NCBI GenBank assembly: GCA_038093515.1
Contig: JBBPSI010000095.1
Coordinates: 27,527-91,526 of the forward strand
DNA: 64,000 bases
Reading direction: 5' to 3'
Origin: Butyriboletus loyo
Taxonomy: Eukaryota; Basidiomycota; Agaricomycetes; Boletales; Boletaceae
A model generated the notes under the pieces. That model did no database searches. It was not told the DNA's origin and saw only the letters and a list, made by a program, of their open reading frames with translations. Each line of letters opens with the position of its first letter. Positions within the stretch are counted from its first letter, which is position 1. A program made the position numbers and the translations under genes. This document shows positions 3,236 through 48,719 of the stretch, in pieces.

Positions 3236-3857
3236 TCTTACAGCCATTGTACACATTATCGTGAGTACACGCTCGTGCTATCATCGTATACTGGTAATAC
3301 ACGGCCCATCGCTTACATGGTGTTCTATCCGTGGATGCGACATGCGGTCTCGAGCTTGAACATACTTTGAGCCAGCGTCGGCAAATAGACACGCCACATA
3401 CTCTTCTCTTGATACGTGTGTGGTACTACTTTGGCTCGGATACAGTATGACAATGGCACTCTGCTCATATGCCTATATGACATGTACACCATTCTTGTGC
3501 AAAAGATCGAATACCGAGACGTTGACGTCCTCGCCAAAAGCCGGGACGTCCCACCAGACGCACATCCTCGTCTTGGAAGATATTTTATAACCATGCAACA
3601 GCTTCCAACGCCACGGTGTGATACGAACTCGTAGAACTACACGATGGATGCTCCCGGACTTGCGATCCGATGGAATCACTGCGTCTCGTCATGTGCGCCT
3701 GGGCGGATACACAACATCCATGCAGGTAACCTGATTGCAAGGGTGGCATGGTCTGATCCTTGCTGATGCTGATCCACTGTGAGTCTAACAATGTAAACCA
3801 AATGAGATCACGCGCACCATTACATGGACCCCCACGACGGAGGGTTCAGATGGATTA
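3236..3857. repeat. convergent spacer, part of the amplified unit
   Basis: The spacer between the SCI1-like gene and WD40 copy A recurs with small changes next to copies B, D, E and the right-arm copies. The minus strand keeps an open frame (3585-3791, containing WISISKDQTMPPLQSGYLHG) whose counterparts are open or nearly open in several other copies. It may therefore hold extra 3' exons of the WD40 gene or be its 3' UTR. Confidence 0.6.
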
Positions 3858-22418: not shown

Positions 22419-24051
22419 TCATACTAGCTCCATTGCTCTTGGATCTGCAGCACTTTGTCCGCTACCCGAAGCACCTTCCTTCGGATGTTTGGGAGTAGTA
22501 GTTTTGGCACGTGATTTGCGCTGTAACGTGTGATGAGTCCCTGCATACAAATCCGAGAAATAGCAACGAACCTGTCGTCTTCTGGTGAATCCTGTGGATG
22601 TTCGCTAAAATGAAATATTAGACACACCACATTCTATCGTGTATCAAGGAAGAGCACTCACTGCTTGACGTTCAGCTGCAGCCATCCTCGAAGGGCCCTC
22701 GTTTGTGGTATCCAGTCTCGTTGGGGAGTGGGAAGGTGATCGATGATCTGCGGGCTGGCATGAATTTCCGGAACGTCGATCGGGCTTGTGTGAAGAGGCG
22801 TCCTTCGTATTCTTTCGCAGAAGTAATTTTTTAAATATTGAACGACCTTGCGATGACTGTGCAGTATCAAAGTTTTCTCCCGGACGTGCCTCTGCAGGGG
22901 AGCCCAGCGGCGGTAGCTGATCCTCGCGGGGACCAGCAGCGGAGGTCGGGGATGGTGGCTCCAGTAGCGTCAACACAGAAGCAATAAATAAAGAGGTGAC
23001 CACCAACCTCGTCAAAGTTGAATTCGGCAGCTGGCGTGCTCTGTGGGACCTCGTGCTATGTTATCGTGAGAACTTGGTCCGAGAGGGAAACGAACGAAAG
23101 GATACCTCGAGGAGATCATCCCCATCTTCACTATGTCTCTCGGACTCGAGTGAGCTGGATTTCCCAGGACCTTCCTGTTATAGTACACAAGGGAATCAGC
23201 GCAACTCTTTTGGTGCCGTAATGAAAAACTCCTACTGCGGTAGAGTCAGGTGGCTCACTGTCGTGACCCGGTCTGAGGTGGTCAACGGATTCAATACGAG
23301 AACGACCTTCTGAGGACAAAATACATACAGTTGTGTTTGATCATCGAACGACGCGGCAGTCCCCCTCGGTTGCGCCGAAAGACTTCTCCTCTCTCCTTCC
23401 TCTTCGTCTTCCTGCATACTCGCGTATCCTCTAATCATGGCATCACGCTTCAAAATCCGGTTTCTCCGCTCTTCCCGAAGTCGACCAGGATCGCTAAGGA
23501 GGTTGACGACATCCTTGGCCTTTTGCCGTACGTTGGCTCCACGATCCTTTCCATACTCGTCCATATACTGGAACTCCTTGAGCGTCCTGACAATGTACAA
23601 GTTGCCTCTAAAGTAGTGCGCGACGTTTTCCGACCCGGCGTGTAGAATATAATCGATAACGGTGAGAGACTGCAACGTCTCAGCCCATGACGAACGCTAG
23701 ATCATCTATAAAAGCCGGTCAAACACTCACCTTAAACACATGCCTCCAATTCTTCCCCTTGTCGTTCAATCGTTTATCGAGCATTTCCATGATTTCGACA
23801 AAGTCATCCCTGTGAAAAAGGTTCAACAACACGAACCTCCTGTCGCACGATACACGCCTCCCAGCGTCATGGGGTGCAGCGAACACGCACTGACTGTAAC
23901 TCAACTGCGCAATCTCGTTCATCTGTGTACCTGAGGGCCCCCATGGATCGTTCGACGTGGCATCCCGAATTTTTGCCTGCGTATCCGAATAACCCAAGGT
24001 GATGTTCTTGGCGGCCCGCAAAACGCCCTTTCCAAAGTACTGCAGCGACAT
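22419..24051 (-). CDS. ENTH-domain protein joined to a WD40-family tail (copy E chimera)
   Basis: ENTH exons on the minus strand: 24051-23891, 23809-23731 and 23669 to about 23340. They encode a full epsin-type ENTH domain: MSLQYFGKGVLRAAKNITLG, QMNEIAQLSYSQDDFVEIMEM, GKNWRHVFKSLTVIDYILHA, YFRGNLYIVRTLKEFQYMDE, GANVRQKAKDVVNLL. ENTH domains bind phosphoinositides in endocytosis. The ENTH frame read straight on ends at 23232. Immediately adjoining are intact tail exons of the WD40 family: about 23309-23236, 23174-23106, 23055-23008, 22958-22662 and 22604-22419. The two frames differ at the junction. A splice from A|GTATGC inside ENTH exon 3 to CAG|AA at 23310 would join them in frame. Either it is a fused gene or a truncated 225 aa ENTH protein beside an orphan tail. 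No epsin C-terminal motifs (UIM, NPF) are present. Confidence 0.72.
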
Positions 24052-24399
24052 CGCAATAGAATGAGATGTAGAGTGCTGCTACAGAGGGTATAAGAGATGG
24101 TGTACTTCTATGAGATGGGTAGCAAACGTAGCTGAATGTGGGATATTGATGATATTGGCCACAGCCTGTGTAAACGTAAAACCGTTATGGCAGTGCACTG
24201 GTTTGGAAAGTTGACCACGCCGATGATGAAGCGGTCCGCATGCATGCCTTCCAAGCAAACGGCCAGTCTACCTCACGGTAAAGACAAATCTCCCGAATGA
24301 GCAGAGAATGCTAGCGATCATGTTCTCTCATCTGGTTTTATTGTCCTAACTGCCCAATCTTAAGGGAGTCAGCCTTGTGTGAGTGAAATTACGAGCGGA
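24052..24399. promoter_or_regulatory. upstream region of the ENTH chimera
   Basis: No coding sequence recognised. It must hold whatever promoter the ENTH segment uses. The part from 24270 to 24350 resembles 6720-6840, so some of it belongs to the array spacer, not to the parental epsin gene. Confidence 0.35.
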
Positions 24400-24905
24400 T
24401 AGGGGGAATCCTCCCTCGTTGCCATACAATTTCCACGGCGGTGACCATTGAAGTAGGCAGTGGCGATGTAGTCAACTTGATTCCAGTGACGAGCTCTCTC
24501 CATGCTTGTGAGACTCCTTTCTTGTCACCCAATCCGATCCCGGTTGCGAACCTAGTCGAATCCTGGGAGACATCAACTGTGTTTGTGCTCTCCACCAATT
24601 GATGACCTTTCTGCATCCAACCCATCCTTAATTCCACATACTATCCATTTATGATCCCTCGACGTAGAAATAACGCCCAACGTCATGCCCGTTTACTTTC
24701 CGATCTGTTGACCATCTACAAATCGCCATCTTCGAGTCCCATGGTCACCCCTGCCCAGAACATGCTTTCCGTCGGGGTGGAAAGTAACTGCGTATATATT
24801 ACCAGAGCGACCAGTATCGAGGACTATTGTTGGGTCTCACCGAATCGTCAGTATATACCCAAACACTCGTCGGAGCTGCTACGCACCGATATTCGTCGAC
24901 GACAT
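24400..24905 (-). pseudogene. relic of the WD40 head displaced by the ENTH insertion
   Basis: Reading right to left one sees the first exon (ATG TCG TCG ACG), the 5' splice site GTGCGTAGC, then GNIYAVTFHPDGKHVLG, TRRWRFVDGQQ and RDHKWIVCG, followed by stops and deletions. It ends near 24400, well short of the tail. It is the remains of exons 1-2 of copy E, separated from its tail by the ENTH block. Confidence 0.82.
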
Positions 24906-25892
24906 CATCTTCACCAACGCCACACAGTCGTCGGTGTCAAACATATGTCAAGGAACAAGGCCTGTGTTTCGGTCGACTCGTAAGGCGCAAAATTGCTTTG
25001 CATAAACACGTTTCCTCGTTCTCGATGTAACCCACATCCTCCTTTGCCAAGCCTGAGGCAGTCTGCGATCGCTCGTCATATTCATATCTCGGCTACGGTA
25101 TCCAGTTCACCGTGACGACGGAGTGCACGATTCGCATCGGAAGACCAACTCGCGGCACTGGCATATCGCCACCCACGACAAAGCGATCCGTTCTCGAAAG
25201 CTTTCGACGCACTCAAACTCCACAGGAATGTACGTCGGTGCACTCGCTCTGACCACGTCGCATTCACGTGTATGTATACGCCGGCTGGGCGTTCTCACCC
25301 TTCCTTATCTGTCCGGAGTTCGACTGGTTTCGCTCGCTCACTTCCCTCGTTGACGCTAGAAATGCCCCCGGACGGTCAACGATAACGTCCCTGGTACACC
25401 GCGGCCAACCCGCCTCACAGACATACACATAAAAGCCACCTGATCGTTAGGGATTGCCGTCAAACGTCGTGCTAAAGTGTTGGAAGCAGATCCAACGAAG
25501 GCGATATACATATTCTACTACCATTCAAGGCAGGATCGAAGCGCCGTACGTCGACATTCCGATAAACAGGCAGAATCGACAACTTTATCACGAACTCTTC
25601 CAGTACTTCGACCGACATCCAAGGCTCTCCCAAGCTGCCAGCCCTGTATGCACTCCGTCAGTACGCTTTCGTCCCTCGTGGCATTGCCTGGGCCATCGAC
25701 ACTACGAATTGGCCAGATACACATATTCCCCCGATCTTTTGCTCGCACCTCAGAATTCAGGCTATGTAGGAATGAGCGGGCGTAGTAGTTGCAACGTCCC
25801 CTCGACGTCGTGTGTGGTATTACACCCTACATAGAAAGCCAATGGAGGCAAAATATAAAAAAGCACAAGCAAGACATCATCCTGTCTGTCGC
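24906..25892. repeat. spacer at the left-array edge with decayed module
   Basis: Carries the WD40 5'-flank block (25200-25400) and the best preserved NVVLKCW-type module (25465-25800; plus-strand frame with APYVDIPINRQNRQLYHELF). It ends abruptly at the RuvB-like gene. No intact gene seen. Confidence 0.5.
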
Positions 25893-33700: not shown

Positions 33701-34849
33701 GTCTCTTTGTCGTGCGTTGAGCGGTTGGGATGAGTTTTAAGAGATGGATGTGAGCGTGACATTATAGGGGGTCACTCTCTTGACATCAAGTCCCTAGTCG
33801 AAATACGACCCAACTATAAAGTAAAGGACTGACGCATGACATCTGGCAAAGACTCATAACAGGTCAAATCGTTCAGAAATCACTTGAATTGCAGAAACGC
33901 AGCAAAGACATGCAAAAACCACAGGGAAGAATGTAGGGACCACCGGCCTGCATCTCCGCCGACACCCGACGCACAGATGACATAGCACTAAGACGTGCCG
34001 AAAAGACGTTCTTTTCCGCCCTACTTTGGCACAGACCACCGTGATTCGTTCAACGACAGGTGTGATCTGTAATTTGACTGAGTGCGTTGAAGAACACAAT
34101 GAAAATTTCGTCGAACGTCGTTTTTGTTGGTGTCACGTGCTGGACCTGCGAGCCGGGCCCGGGCGTGCCGCCAGTCAGTCTCAAGTTCTTGCTGGACCAA
34201 CATTTATGAAACCAATCTCCACAAGAAACCTGTCACGAATCCTCGGTTGGAGAATAGTGGTCTGCTTGATCAGGATACGCGTTCAACCGCAATCCTGATC
34301 TCCGAAATACCGTTCACGAGCAGGTTGCGCGATGTGAAAGCATTCGCAACGTCGGACAAGCTGCTAGAGCCATAATGTTGCTAAATCCATGACACGTCTA
34401 AACGTTTCTTGCGTCGCTGAAGGGGGACATACGTGTGTTCGTCCGGAGTGGTAACGCCGAAATAAAGATATGAAGCATCAAAACCGCCAATCCCCTGATT
34501 GCTTCAATCATTGTCAGGTTCGAAAGACACAAGCCCATAGATGGGAAACAAACTGTCCGTGCCGTACCACTACAACTCGGACACACAAGAGATCGTGTAT
34601 TAACTTGTCATCTCAATTCCGCCGGTCGCCTTCACCGTCCGGATCGAGTCTGCTATCCGTAACGACTGTTCGCGGCGGGGCAATCCATTATTTTAGGTTT
34701 GATCTGCGGTCGACTGCTTACCTCTCCTCCCCTCGTTCGTCGATGAGATGCGCAACATTATTCTCCTTGGGCTCTATCGACTTGTTGCTGCTTAGGATGG
34801 GGTGAATGGTAATCCAACCAGTGTCTCTGCCGTGAGTTACTGAGTAGAT
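33701..34849. other. intergenic region between island and right WD40 arm, nothing recognised
   Basis: Scanned in all frames. Only short unrelated open frames (81-111 codons) without family motifs were found. It separates the ordinary gene island from the first right-arm WD40 fragment. Confidence 0.4.
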
Positions 34850-35205
34850 GCGACAAGCGAGGGACCTTCGTGGATGGCTGCGGGTCAACGTCAACGAGTG
34901 AATATTGTTCTTTTGTTAGACAATCGGATGTGCGGTATCCAACATTACATCTTGGCGAGCGGTCACAGGAATTTCCAGAAAGCGAGAGGTTCGTTATTTC
35001 TCGGATTTGTATGCGGAGACTCATCACACGCTGCAGCTTAAATCTCCTGCCAAGGCCACTGTTCCCGACCAGCCGAACGAAGATCCTTCCCATAGCGGAG
35101 AACGTGCTGCGGATCCAAGGGCAACGGACCCAGTGCGTTTTGTTCTGGTGATGATAGAACTTGTCATGACACCTCACGTCCTGTTAGGCGCAAACACATA
35201 ATAAT
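34850..35205 (+). pseudogene. WD40-family tail fragment (F0): end of exon 6 and exon 7
   Basis: Only the last codons of exon 6 (EGPSWMAAGQRQR) and the complete exon 7 (ISRKREVRYFSDLYAETHHT; NEDPSHSGERAADPRATDP) remain, on the plus strand, followed by PVRFVLVMIELVMTPHVLLG as in copies A-D. Everything upstream is missing, so this is a truncated copy. Confidence 0.82.
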
Positions 35206-35899
35206 CCATCTGAACCCTCTGTCGTGGGGGTCCAGGTAATGGTGCGCGTGATCTCATTTGGTTTACATTGTCAGACTCACAGTGGATCAGCATCAGCAAG
35301 GATCAGGCCATGCTACACTTGCAATCAGGTTACCCGCATGGATGTTGTGTATCCGCCCAGGCACACAAGATGAGACGCAGTGATTCCATCCAACACGTGT
35401 AGGTTTTACTCTGGATCAGAAGTTCGGGAGCATCAACTGTGTATTTCTACGAGCTCGTATCACCTTGCAGCGTTGGTATAAATCCGATAAACGCCCCTCA
35501 TCATGATGATCGAGCTCGTCAAGATATTCACTCTATGGCATTGATAAAGTCTTACGCACACAGCGGAGGTTTGGATTGCAAGACGACGTCTGATCGATGA
35601 AAGCTGTTACATGCTTACAGAATGTCTTCCAAGGCGAAGGTATACGTCTGGTGAAAAGTCCCAACTTCTGGCGAGGACGCTAACGTTTCAGTGTTCGATT
35701 TTATCCTGACGACAGGGTATGGGTTTACATGACATTCAAGCATGAGTGGGGTGCCATCGTCATGCTGTATCGGGGCCAAAGTAGCACCATAGACGTCTCA
35801 GGAAAGGAGTACACAATATATTCGTTTGCAAGGCCGGCTCAAAGGATGCTTAGTCTCGACACCAGAAGACACGTCCACAGACAGAAGACGGCGTGTCGC
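35206..35899. repeat. convergent-spacer sequence in inverted orientation
   Basis: 35206-35470 corresponds to the reverse complement of left-arm spacers such as 3640-3840. The remainder is weakly related or unique. No gene recognised. Confidence 0.5.
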
Positions 35900-47565: not shown

Positions 47566-48146
47566 GACATTCCGCTGCTGATCCCTGGGAGGATCAGTTG
47601 CCGCCACTAGACTCCCCTGCAGAGGAACGTTCGAAGGAAAACCTTCATTTGCAGGGTCGTTCAATATTCAAAAAGTTGCTACGGCGAAGGAGTAAGAAGG
47701 ACGTCACTTCACACAAGCCCGGTCAATGTTCCGGAAAGTCACGCCAGCCTGCTGGTCGTCGATCACCTTCCCACTCCCCAGCGAGAGTGGATGCCACAAA
47801 CGAGGGCCCTTCGAGGATGGCTGCAGCTGAACGTCAAGCGGTGAGTGCTCTTCCTTGATACACCATGGGATACGGTGTGTCTAATATTTCATTTTAGCGA
47901 ACATCCACAGGATTTACCAGAAGACGACAGGTTTGTCGTTCCTCGGATTTGTATGCAGGGACTTATCACACATCGCAGCGTAAATCGCGTGCCAAGGCCA
48001 CGGTTCCCAACCATCCGAACGAAGATGCTTCCCGCAGCGGAGAGCGTGCTGCGGATCCAAGGGTAGACACCCAGTATGATTCTTCCTGGTGCCTCGTCAC
48101 GACAGCTCACGTCCTATTAGACGCAACAAGCGAGCGAACCGTCTGA
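47566..48146 (+). pseudogene. WD40-family tail fragment (H): exons 6 and 7
   Basis: Starts inside exon 6 ([38 protein letters not shown]), keeps the exon 6/7 intron (47841-47897) and exon 7 (FTRRRQVCRSSDLYAGTYHT). The frame then stays open through the putative 3' intron to 48146. No head exons. Still a clean tail, so it could in principle be captured by another promoter. Confidence 0.8.
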
Positions 48147-48719
48147 ATCCTCAGTTGGCCGGGTCCATATAACGGTGCGCGTTACCTTCCTTTCACCTAC
48201 ATTGTGAAACTCATAGTGGATCAATATCAGCCAGGACCAAGCTACTCTACCCTTTCGATCACGTTCCCTACATGGATGTTGTGTAATCGCTCGGGTACAC
48301 ACGACGAGATGCATTGATCCTGGTGATTCAATGCGATACCATGCTGGATCGGGTGAAGCAGCGCCACACATCTCAAAAGAAGAGTAATAGCATGTCTATT
48401 TTCCAACCCTGGCGTAAAGGATGCTCAGTCTCGCAACCGCAGCATGCACAGATAGAAGGCGACGTAGGCGATGTGCCAAGTATTATCGGAACATGATGAT
48501 AGCATGAGCGTGTGCTCACAATAACATGTACAGTGGTATAAGTATCCGAACCGTTGTTTAGCAAGTTGTTGAAACATCGTATCACGACGGCACGTTCATG
48601 CGCTGTCGTCACCTTGGCTTCTAGTGCCGCACCAGGTATCTGTTCGAACCATTTCCGGGCAGCATCCGATCATGCTATGCTATCGTAGATGTCAGCAACA
48701 CGCTTGACGAAAAGCAAAA

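Follow-up and report, generated by a model that had tools for sequence, protein, structure and literature searches.

New protein architectures can arise when segmental duplication and exon shuffling bring together parts of unrelated genes, and the resulting chimeric genes are a known general class. The locus described here joins parts of two recognizable gene types. One is the epsin of the Ent1/Ent2 class, in which an ENTH domain is followed by ubiquitin-interacting motifs (UIMs) and a tail with NPF motifs. In Saccharomyces cerevisiae, the ENTH domain alone is reported to be enough for the essential epsin function, a single ENTH domain restoring the viability of an ent1 ent2 double mutant, and in Candida albicans it is reported to suffice for filamentation (PMC10128014). 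In fungi, the ANTH domain of Sla2 is described as assembling with PIP2-bound ENTH (PMC5780493). The other is a Boletaceae family of WD40 proteins with a shared C-terminal tail, exemplified by protein P0001 of Butyriboletus roseoflavus.

The chimera analysed here, which we call copy E, shares its ENTH domain, the structure of exons 1–3 and its promoter with epsins, but its UIMs are deleted and the NPF motifs and C terminus are replaced by a 211-aa WD40-family tail. With the WD40-plus-tail family it shares the tail exons and a position in a tandem array, whereas the propeller is lost and an ENTH domain serves as the head. As in other chimeras formed by segmental duplication and exon shuffling, it is a DNA-level copy that includes introns, with the fusion beside an intron boundary; its pairing of head and tail differs in being unseen among the protein matches listed. 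Below, siblings are the other copies of the tail, and the parent is the epsin on contig C48.

An ENTH domain in a WD40 tandem array

The window, by which we mean the whole 64,000-nucleotide stretch of Butyriboletus loyo DNA that was analysed, contains WD40 genes with a common tail, arranged in tandem at about 3500–48500. The first-pass annotation had reported that a complete, spliced and stop-free ENTH domain replaces the propeller of one array member, with five open tail exons behind it. Rebuilding the gene from sequence gave a coding region at 24051–22419 on the minus strand (8 exons, 7 introns, 1218 nt), coinciding exactly with the annotated coordinates (22419..24051) and encoding 405 aa followed by a TAG stop. 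All seven introns have GT–AG ends and the exons are free of stops. The ENTH domain is full length (PF01417, 170.6 bits, profile positions 1–124 of 124) and matches 1h0a at E=4.5e-50.

Exon 1 (23891..24051), which begins with the ATG at 24051 and matches the parental epsin, encodes the ENTH N terminus with helix 0; exon 2 (23731..23809) continues the domain, and exon 3 (23329..23669) encodes the remainder together with a short acidic linker. Exon 4 (23236..23272) is a hybrid in which four epsin-like nucleotides are followed by WD40 tail in the sibling frame. The rest of the tail comes from exons 5 (23106..23174) and 6 (23008..23055), both with splice sites common to the siblings, exon 7 (22662..22958), which carries the SSQGRSIFKKLLLRK motif and is stop-free in all 20 siblings compared, and exon 8 (22419..22604), which ends in the TAG; all eight exons lie on the minus strand. 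Compared by eye, the tail splice sites of copy E align with those of the siblings and the family tail exons are in frame, so the five tail exons are open with standard splice sites as first described.

No epsin C terminus is present, and a Pfam search returned no family in the tail at E≤1. The tail is polar (GRAVY −1.23), with 66% disorder-promoting residues and no hydrophobic stretch of 19 residues, and is probably disordered. In the alignment with 1h0a, copy E keeps all eight of the PIP2-contact positions checked, as does the parent; the eight are contacts of human epsin-1. R7 of human epsin-1, a further PIP2 contact outside these eight, corresponds to L11 in both copy E and the parent. Binding of Cdc42 GAPs by the yeast ENTH domain requires Y100 and T104, which, with the five-residue offset of the Ent1 match, correspond to Y105 and T109 of copy E.

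At the DNA level the copy E tail is 71–84% identical to other copies in the window, comprising six of full length (A, B, C, D, G and H), two shorter ones and one fragment of about 175 nt. Of the shorter copies, F lies at 34847–35384 and I at 47571–48339; the latter lacked a head in the stretch examined, and its tail exons 7 and 8 are stop-free. Across the genome, a search with a 95-aa piece of the tail gave at least 150 tail matches when the best 150 of 207 candidates were scored, and a further survey scored the best 150 of 213. At least 132 WD40 heads were matched, in tandem arrays. Identical-scoring copies on different contigs (C232/C245/C367 and C224/C343/C328) inflate the tail count and suggest separated haplotypes or redundancy. 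Many of the heads have one in-frame TAA inside the matched stretch, which could be an unrecognized intron or a common truncation.

Just upstream of copy E and outside the gene, on the same strand, lies what is left of the displaced WD40 head (24445..25023), which the first-pass annotation had called a wreck. About 78 aa of propeller are still encoded at 24854–24621, with an in-frame stop at 24693–24695, followed by a frame change and a large deletion. Most of the propeller is gone and the ENTH domain sits in its place on the tail exons.

The head matches an epsin gene down to its introns

A family search of the genome (30.3 Mb, 420 contigs) found three ENTH loci: copy E, the C48 epsin and a third gene on contig C169. 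The first-pass annotation had proposed looking for a parental epsin elsewhere in the genome, and the C48 gene fits that role, being intact and aligning with the window in two blocks, one of 906 nt (86% DNA identity) and one of 91 nt (90%). Introns 1–3 of copy E are 89–93% identical to their C48 counterparts, intron 1 being 21 nt longer in copy E. The match continues into the 5′ flank, where 24052..24263 (minus strand) is 77% identical to positions 2438–2650 of the C48 locus, a stretch that spans the intergenic promoter region of the parent and reaches into a tRNA-Gly gene. That tRNA gene is intact beside the parent (2413–2484 of the same locus), and no tRNA-Gly gene was found within the window. 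As introns and 5′ flank are included in the match, DNA rather than mRNA was copied; judged from sequence, the head of copy E is a DNA-level copy of a C48 epsin segment.

The C48 protein is 82–87% identical to epsins of Butyriboletus, Lanmaoa, Imleria (partial) and Boletus, with its best matches in Butyriboletus and Lanmaoa, which places the host in or near Boletaceae. In a tree of 20 ENTH proteins, from which the truncated Imleria sequence was excluded, copy E joins the C48 parent (82/76), although no fork is starred and its placement on so long a branch is unsure (branch lengths of 0.49 for copy E and 0.012 for the parent). Copy E also has a 171-nt in-frame deletion at 23359..23360 (minus strand), where positions 3322–3492 of the C48 locus are absent between two matching blocks. 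The 57 codons lost cover the Pfam-scored UIM of the parent and a second UIM-like pattern. Pfam finds no UIM in copy E, which has no UIM-like patterns compared with two in the parent and no NPF motifs compared with three.

Junction and splicing

The epsin match runs four bases past the end of intron 3, into the equivalent of epsin exon 4, and stops at 23269; the sibling tail match extends to 23268 (copy C) or 23253 (copy G). The last epsin-like bases (ACCG) thus meet the WD40 tail exon (GGTCACGAC...) at 23267..23272 on the minus strand, which places the breakpoint inside the tail exon, where it had first been put, to within a few bases. The sequence ACCT(C/T)(A/G)GA is present in the two partners at this point, and joining at this microhomology is therefore likely.

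Between exons 3 and 4 lies the native epsin intron 3 (23273..23328, minus strand; 56 nt, GTATGT...CTCAG), 89% identical to the parental intron and of the same length. Its removal yields ...FDDQTQL-PGHDSEPPDSTA-EGPGKSS..., in the frame of the sibling tails. The same splice is used in seven of the eight Boletales epsin models checked; the Lanmaoa model differs and keeps three other residues. The first-pass annotation had instead put forward a possible fusion of the two parts through a 110-nt intron running from A/GTATGC to CAG/AA. Such a splice is in frame and possible, but nothing in the parent corresponds to it, and it is not needed, as the native intron suffices. We prefer the latter, and the 56-nt intron 3 is likely to be the splice that joins ENTH to tail. 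With intron 3 unspliced, the frame continues for about 31 codons beyond exon 3 to a stop at 23232.

Copy E carries signs of weak constraint

Over ENTH codons 1–150, three methods gave dN of 0.071–0.078 and dS of 0.16–0.22 between copy E and the parent, and dN/dS in the linker is about 1. Across 193 codons, 38 have amino-acid changes and 19 have silent changes only. When the ENTH replacements were polarized with ten Boletales epsins, 19 of 21 fell on the copy E lineage, one was parental and one ambiguous. Copy E evolves some 20–40 times faster than the parent, which is therefore compatible with a recent relic, and two of its changes, Y17I and D102G, hit residues that do not vary among the epsins compared. 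The replacements are nevertheless not spread as neutrality predicts: near-invariant sites took 8 of the 19 copy E-lineage replacements compared with 67% (about 13) expected (p=0.02), and the changes are conservative (mean BLOSUM 0.42 versus −0.36 expected, p=0.02), these two tests not being independent of each other. In a neutral simulation, the whole coding region stayed stop-free in 25% of runs when divergence was 3% and in 0.8% when it was 10%.

For seven of the 20 siblings, the comparison covers all four tail introns. Relative to six of these, the tail of copy E shows indels of +1, −1 and −2, all intronic; relative to the seventh, copy C, they are −1, −1 and −1. No exon indel is common to the seven comparisons. 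By length alone (217 of 854 nt are intronic), the probability that three of three indels fall in introns is about 0.016. Frame-breaking exon indels, early in exon 8, separate copy E from 7 of the 20 siblings, with +1 in copy H and −7 in the copies at loci L010–L014 and L016; because the other 13 siblings lack them, we attribute these changes to the seven siblings concerned. Across the tail family, exon 8 therefore does not keep a single frame, and the C-terminal frame may be arrived at through splicing that differs between subfamilies.

For tail exons 7 and 8, dN/dS between copy E and the 20 siblings is 0.32–0.66 (NG86) or 0.48–0.86 (maximum likelihood), similar to the 0.24–0.67 (NG86) found among siblings (45 pairs of ten siblings). 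Constraint on copy E is therefore weak but detectable, weak to moderate in degree. Its signals may in part predate the fusion and are not datable to after it.

The pairing among known proteins

A search of a 5.8-billion-protein set with the tail alone gave one match among 629 candidates, the WD40 protein P0001, which is named quinon protein alcohol dehydrogenase-like at its source. It was also the sole carrier of the tail among 162 proteins gathered from the protein-set matches. No protein with both ENTH and this tail was seen among the 629 tail candidates or the best 120 of 4179 whole-chimera matches in the same set, in keeping with the first impression of an unfamiliar combination lacking the epsin C terminus. 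Among the papers listed on WD40 proteins of Boletales and Boletaceae, fungal ENTH architecture and fungal gene fusions, we recognized none on ENTH with this tail.

The second match of the whole-chimera search, P0122 of Suillus clintonianus, was considered as the same architecture and rejected, being a degenerate epsin paralogue without the tail. At 366 aa with a repeated ENTH fragment, it represents a partial epsin duplication in another genus of Boletales.

A second tail behind a foreign head

Of the best 150 of 207 tail candidates in the genome, 120 have a WD40 head 267–943 nt upstream on the same strand. The other 30 are copy E, two tails at contig starts and 27 that we inspected. A WD40 head was found by tblastn for 21 of these 27 (partial at L029 and L034), and two have degraded heads (L037 and L047). 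The remaining four are copy I, one tail at a contig edge, one on C325 (L027) and one on C359 (L035). Twenty further tails, picked by eye from the second genome search, comprised 17 with full heads, two with partial heads and one relic. The relic, a headless tail on C26 (L058), was rejected as a fusion, since the preceding gene has its own stop. The C325 tail (C325:2400-5835) stands behind an ORF that we take to resemble a retroelement chromodomain.

The C359 tail is preceded by a 480-aa ORF of a DUF3684 protein (284 bits), which runs in frame into the same tail exon as in copy E (minus strand, about 14560–10350 of the locus L053, C359:9300-19218). This appears to be a second tail copy joined in frame to another foreign head. 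The frame enters the end of tail exon 4 (...QPVLANSNP, followed by the family GTAGGA donor). The head is truncated, its profile match covering positions 1–179, 215–247 and 253–612 of 1098 and none beyond, compared with 1–1098 in a paralogue on C79. In the six-frame match, the first two blocks each contain an in-frame stop; these may be introns, as the C79 paralogue has an exon break in the first corresponding block and a stop in the second. A comparison of C359 with C79 over a 370-codon exon gave dN of 0.35–0.36 and dS of 1.6–2.8 (near saturation), which points to an exon constrained for much of its history, not necessarily after the fusion. Tail exon 7 of C359 contains a TAA; the tail search also flagged one TAA in close tails on C143, C377 and C26, and it may be a feature of the subfamily.

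We tentatively raise the idea, which we regard as rather doubtful, that the tail of this family is a transferable C-terminal module, captured in this genome, in frame and in the same small exon, by two or more unrelated heads (ENTH on C95 and truncated DUF3684 on C359) in addition to the usual WD40 propeller, with arrays of more than 100 tails acting as acceptors for head swaps.

Discussion

The domain combination is real in the DNA, and copy E belongs to a known evolutionary kind of chimera with an unusually complete record of its formation. On balance, we favour the reading that an epsin segment was copied into a WD40-tail gene and that the result is expressed and spliced as a 405-aa ENTH–linker–tail protein acting as an ENTH-only adaptor. 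A less probable but serious alternative is that copy E formed in just this way and has since been a young relic, open by chance and under no selection. The rapid change of its ENTH domain, with twice as many codons changed in amino acid as silently, the unconstrained linker and the simulated chance of staying stop-free, between 0.008 and 0.25 depending on age, would all suit such a relic. Neutral decay fits poorly with where the indels and replacements fall, and the tail has escaped the decay seen in the displaced WD40 head alongside.

It is improbable, in our estimate, that only a short ENTH protein is made, with intron 3 retained, translation ending at 23232 and the tail serving as untranslated 3′ sequence. 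The unspliced frame would allow it, and ENTH alone is reported to function in yeast (PMC10128014), but intron 3 keeps its GTATGT donor and CTCAG acceptor, all orthologue models checked except that of Lanmaoa splice there, and the tail exons of copy E have no frame-breaking change common to the siblings compared. That the assembly joined two loci is barely credible: the genome is a draft in 420 contigs, several of them with identical-scoring matches, but the ENTH copy differs from the parent by 14% and so is not a misplaced piece of C48, and the WD40 remnant and the tail flank it in the expected order.

A Boletaceae epsin segment that reaches from the promoter through exons 1–3 and intron 3 to the start of exon 4 was copied as DNA into a WD40-plus-tail member of the tandem family, displacing most of the propeller coding region; the join, inside a tail exon, probably formed at a short microhomology. 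Under the favoured reading of an expressed fusion, transcription would be driven by the promoter and start codon that came with the copy, and intron 3 would be spliced as in the parent to give the ENTH–linker–WD40-family-tail product. This protein may act as an ENTH-only adaptor on PIP2 membranes, perhaps with Cdc42 GAPs and a Sla2-type ANTH domain, and would do so without ubiquitinated-cargo or EH-domain partners; its probably disordered tail would be carried wherever the WD40 family acts. Our best guess is a membrane adaptor without a grip on cargo, which possibly competes with epsin or brings the tail to PIP2 membranes.

If expressed, copy E would amount to a naturally occurring epsin that lacks both UIMs and NPF motifs. 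New domain combinations are mostly deduced well after they have formed. For copy E, the sequence still shows the parent, the family that received the copy, the promoter that was copied with it, a junction placed to a few bases and the head that was discarded, so that the steps that made the chimera are visible and still testable. What appears to be a second foreign head, joined within the same exon of another copy of this tail, suggests that large tandem families may be a source of new architectures.
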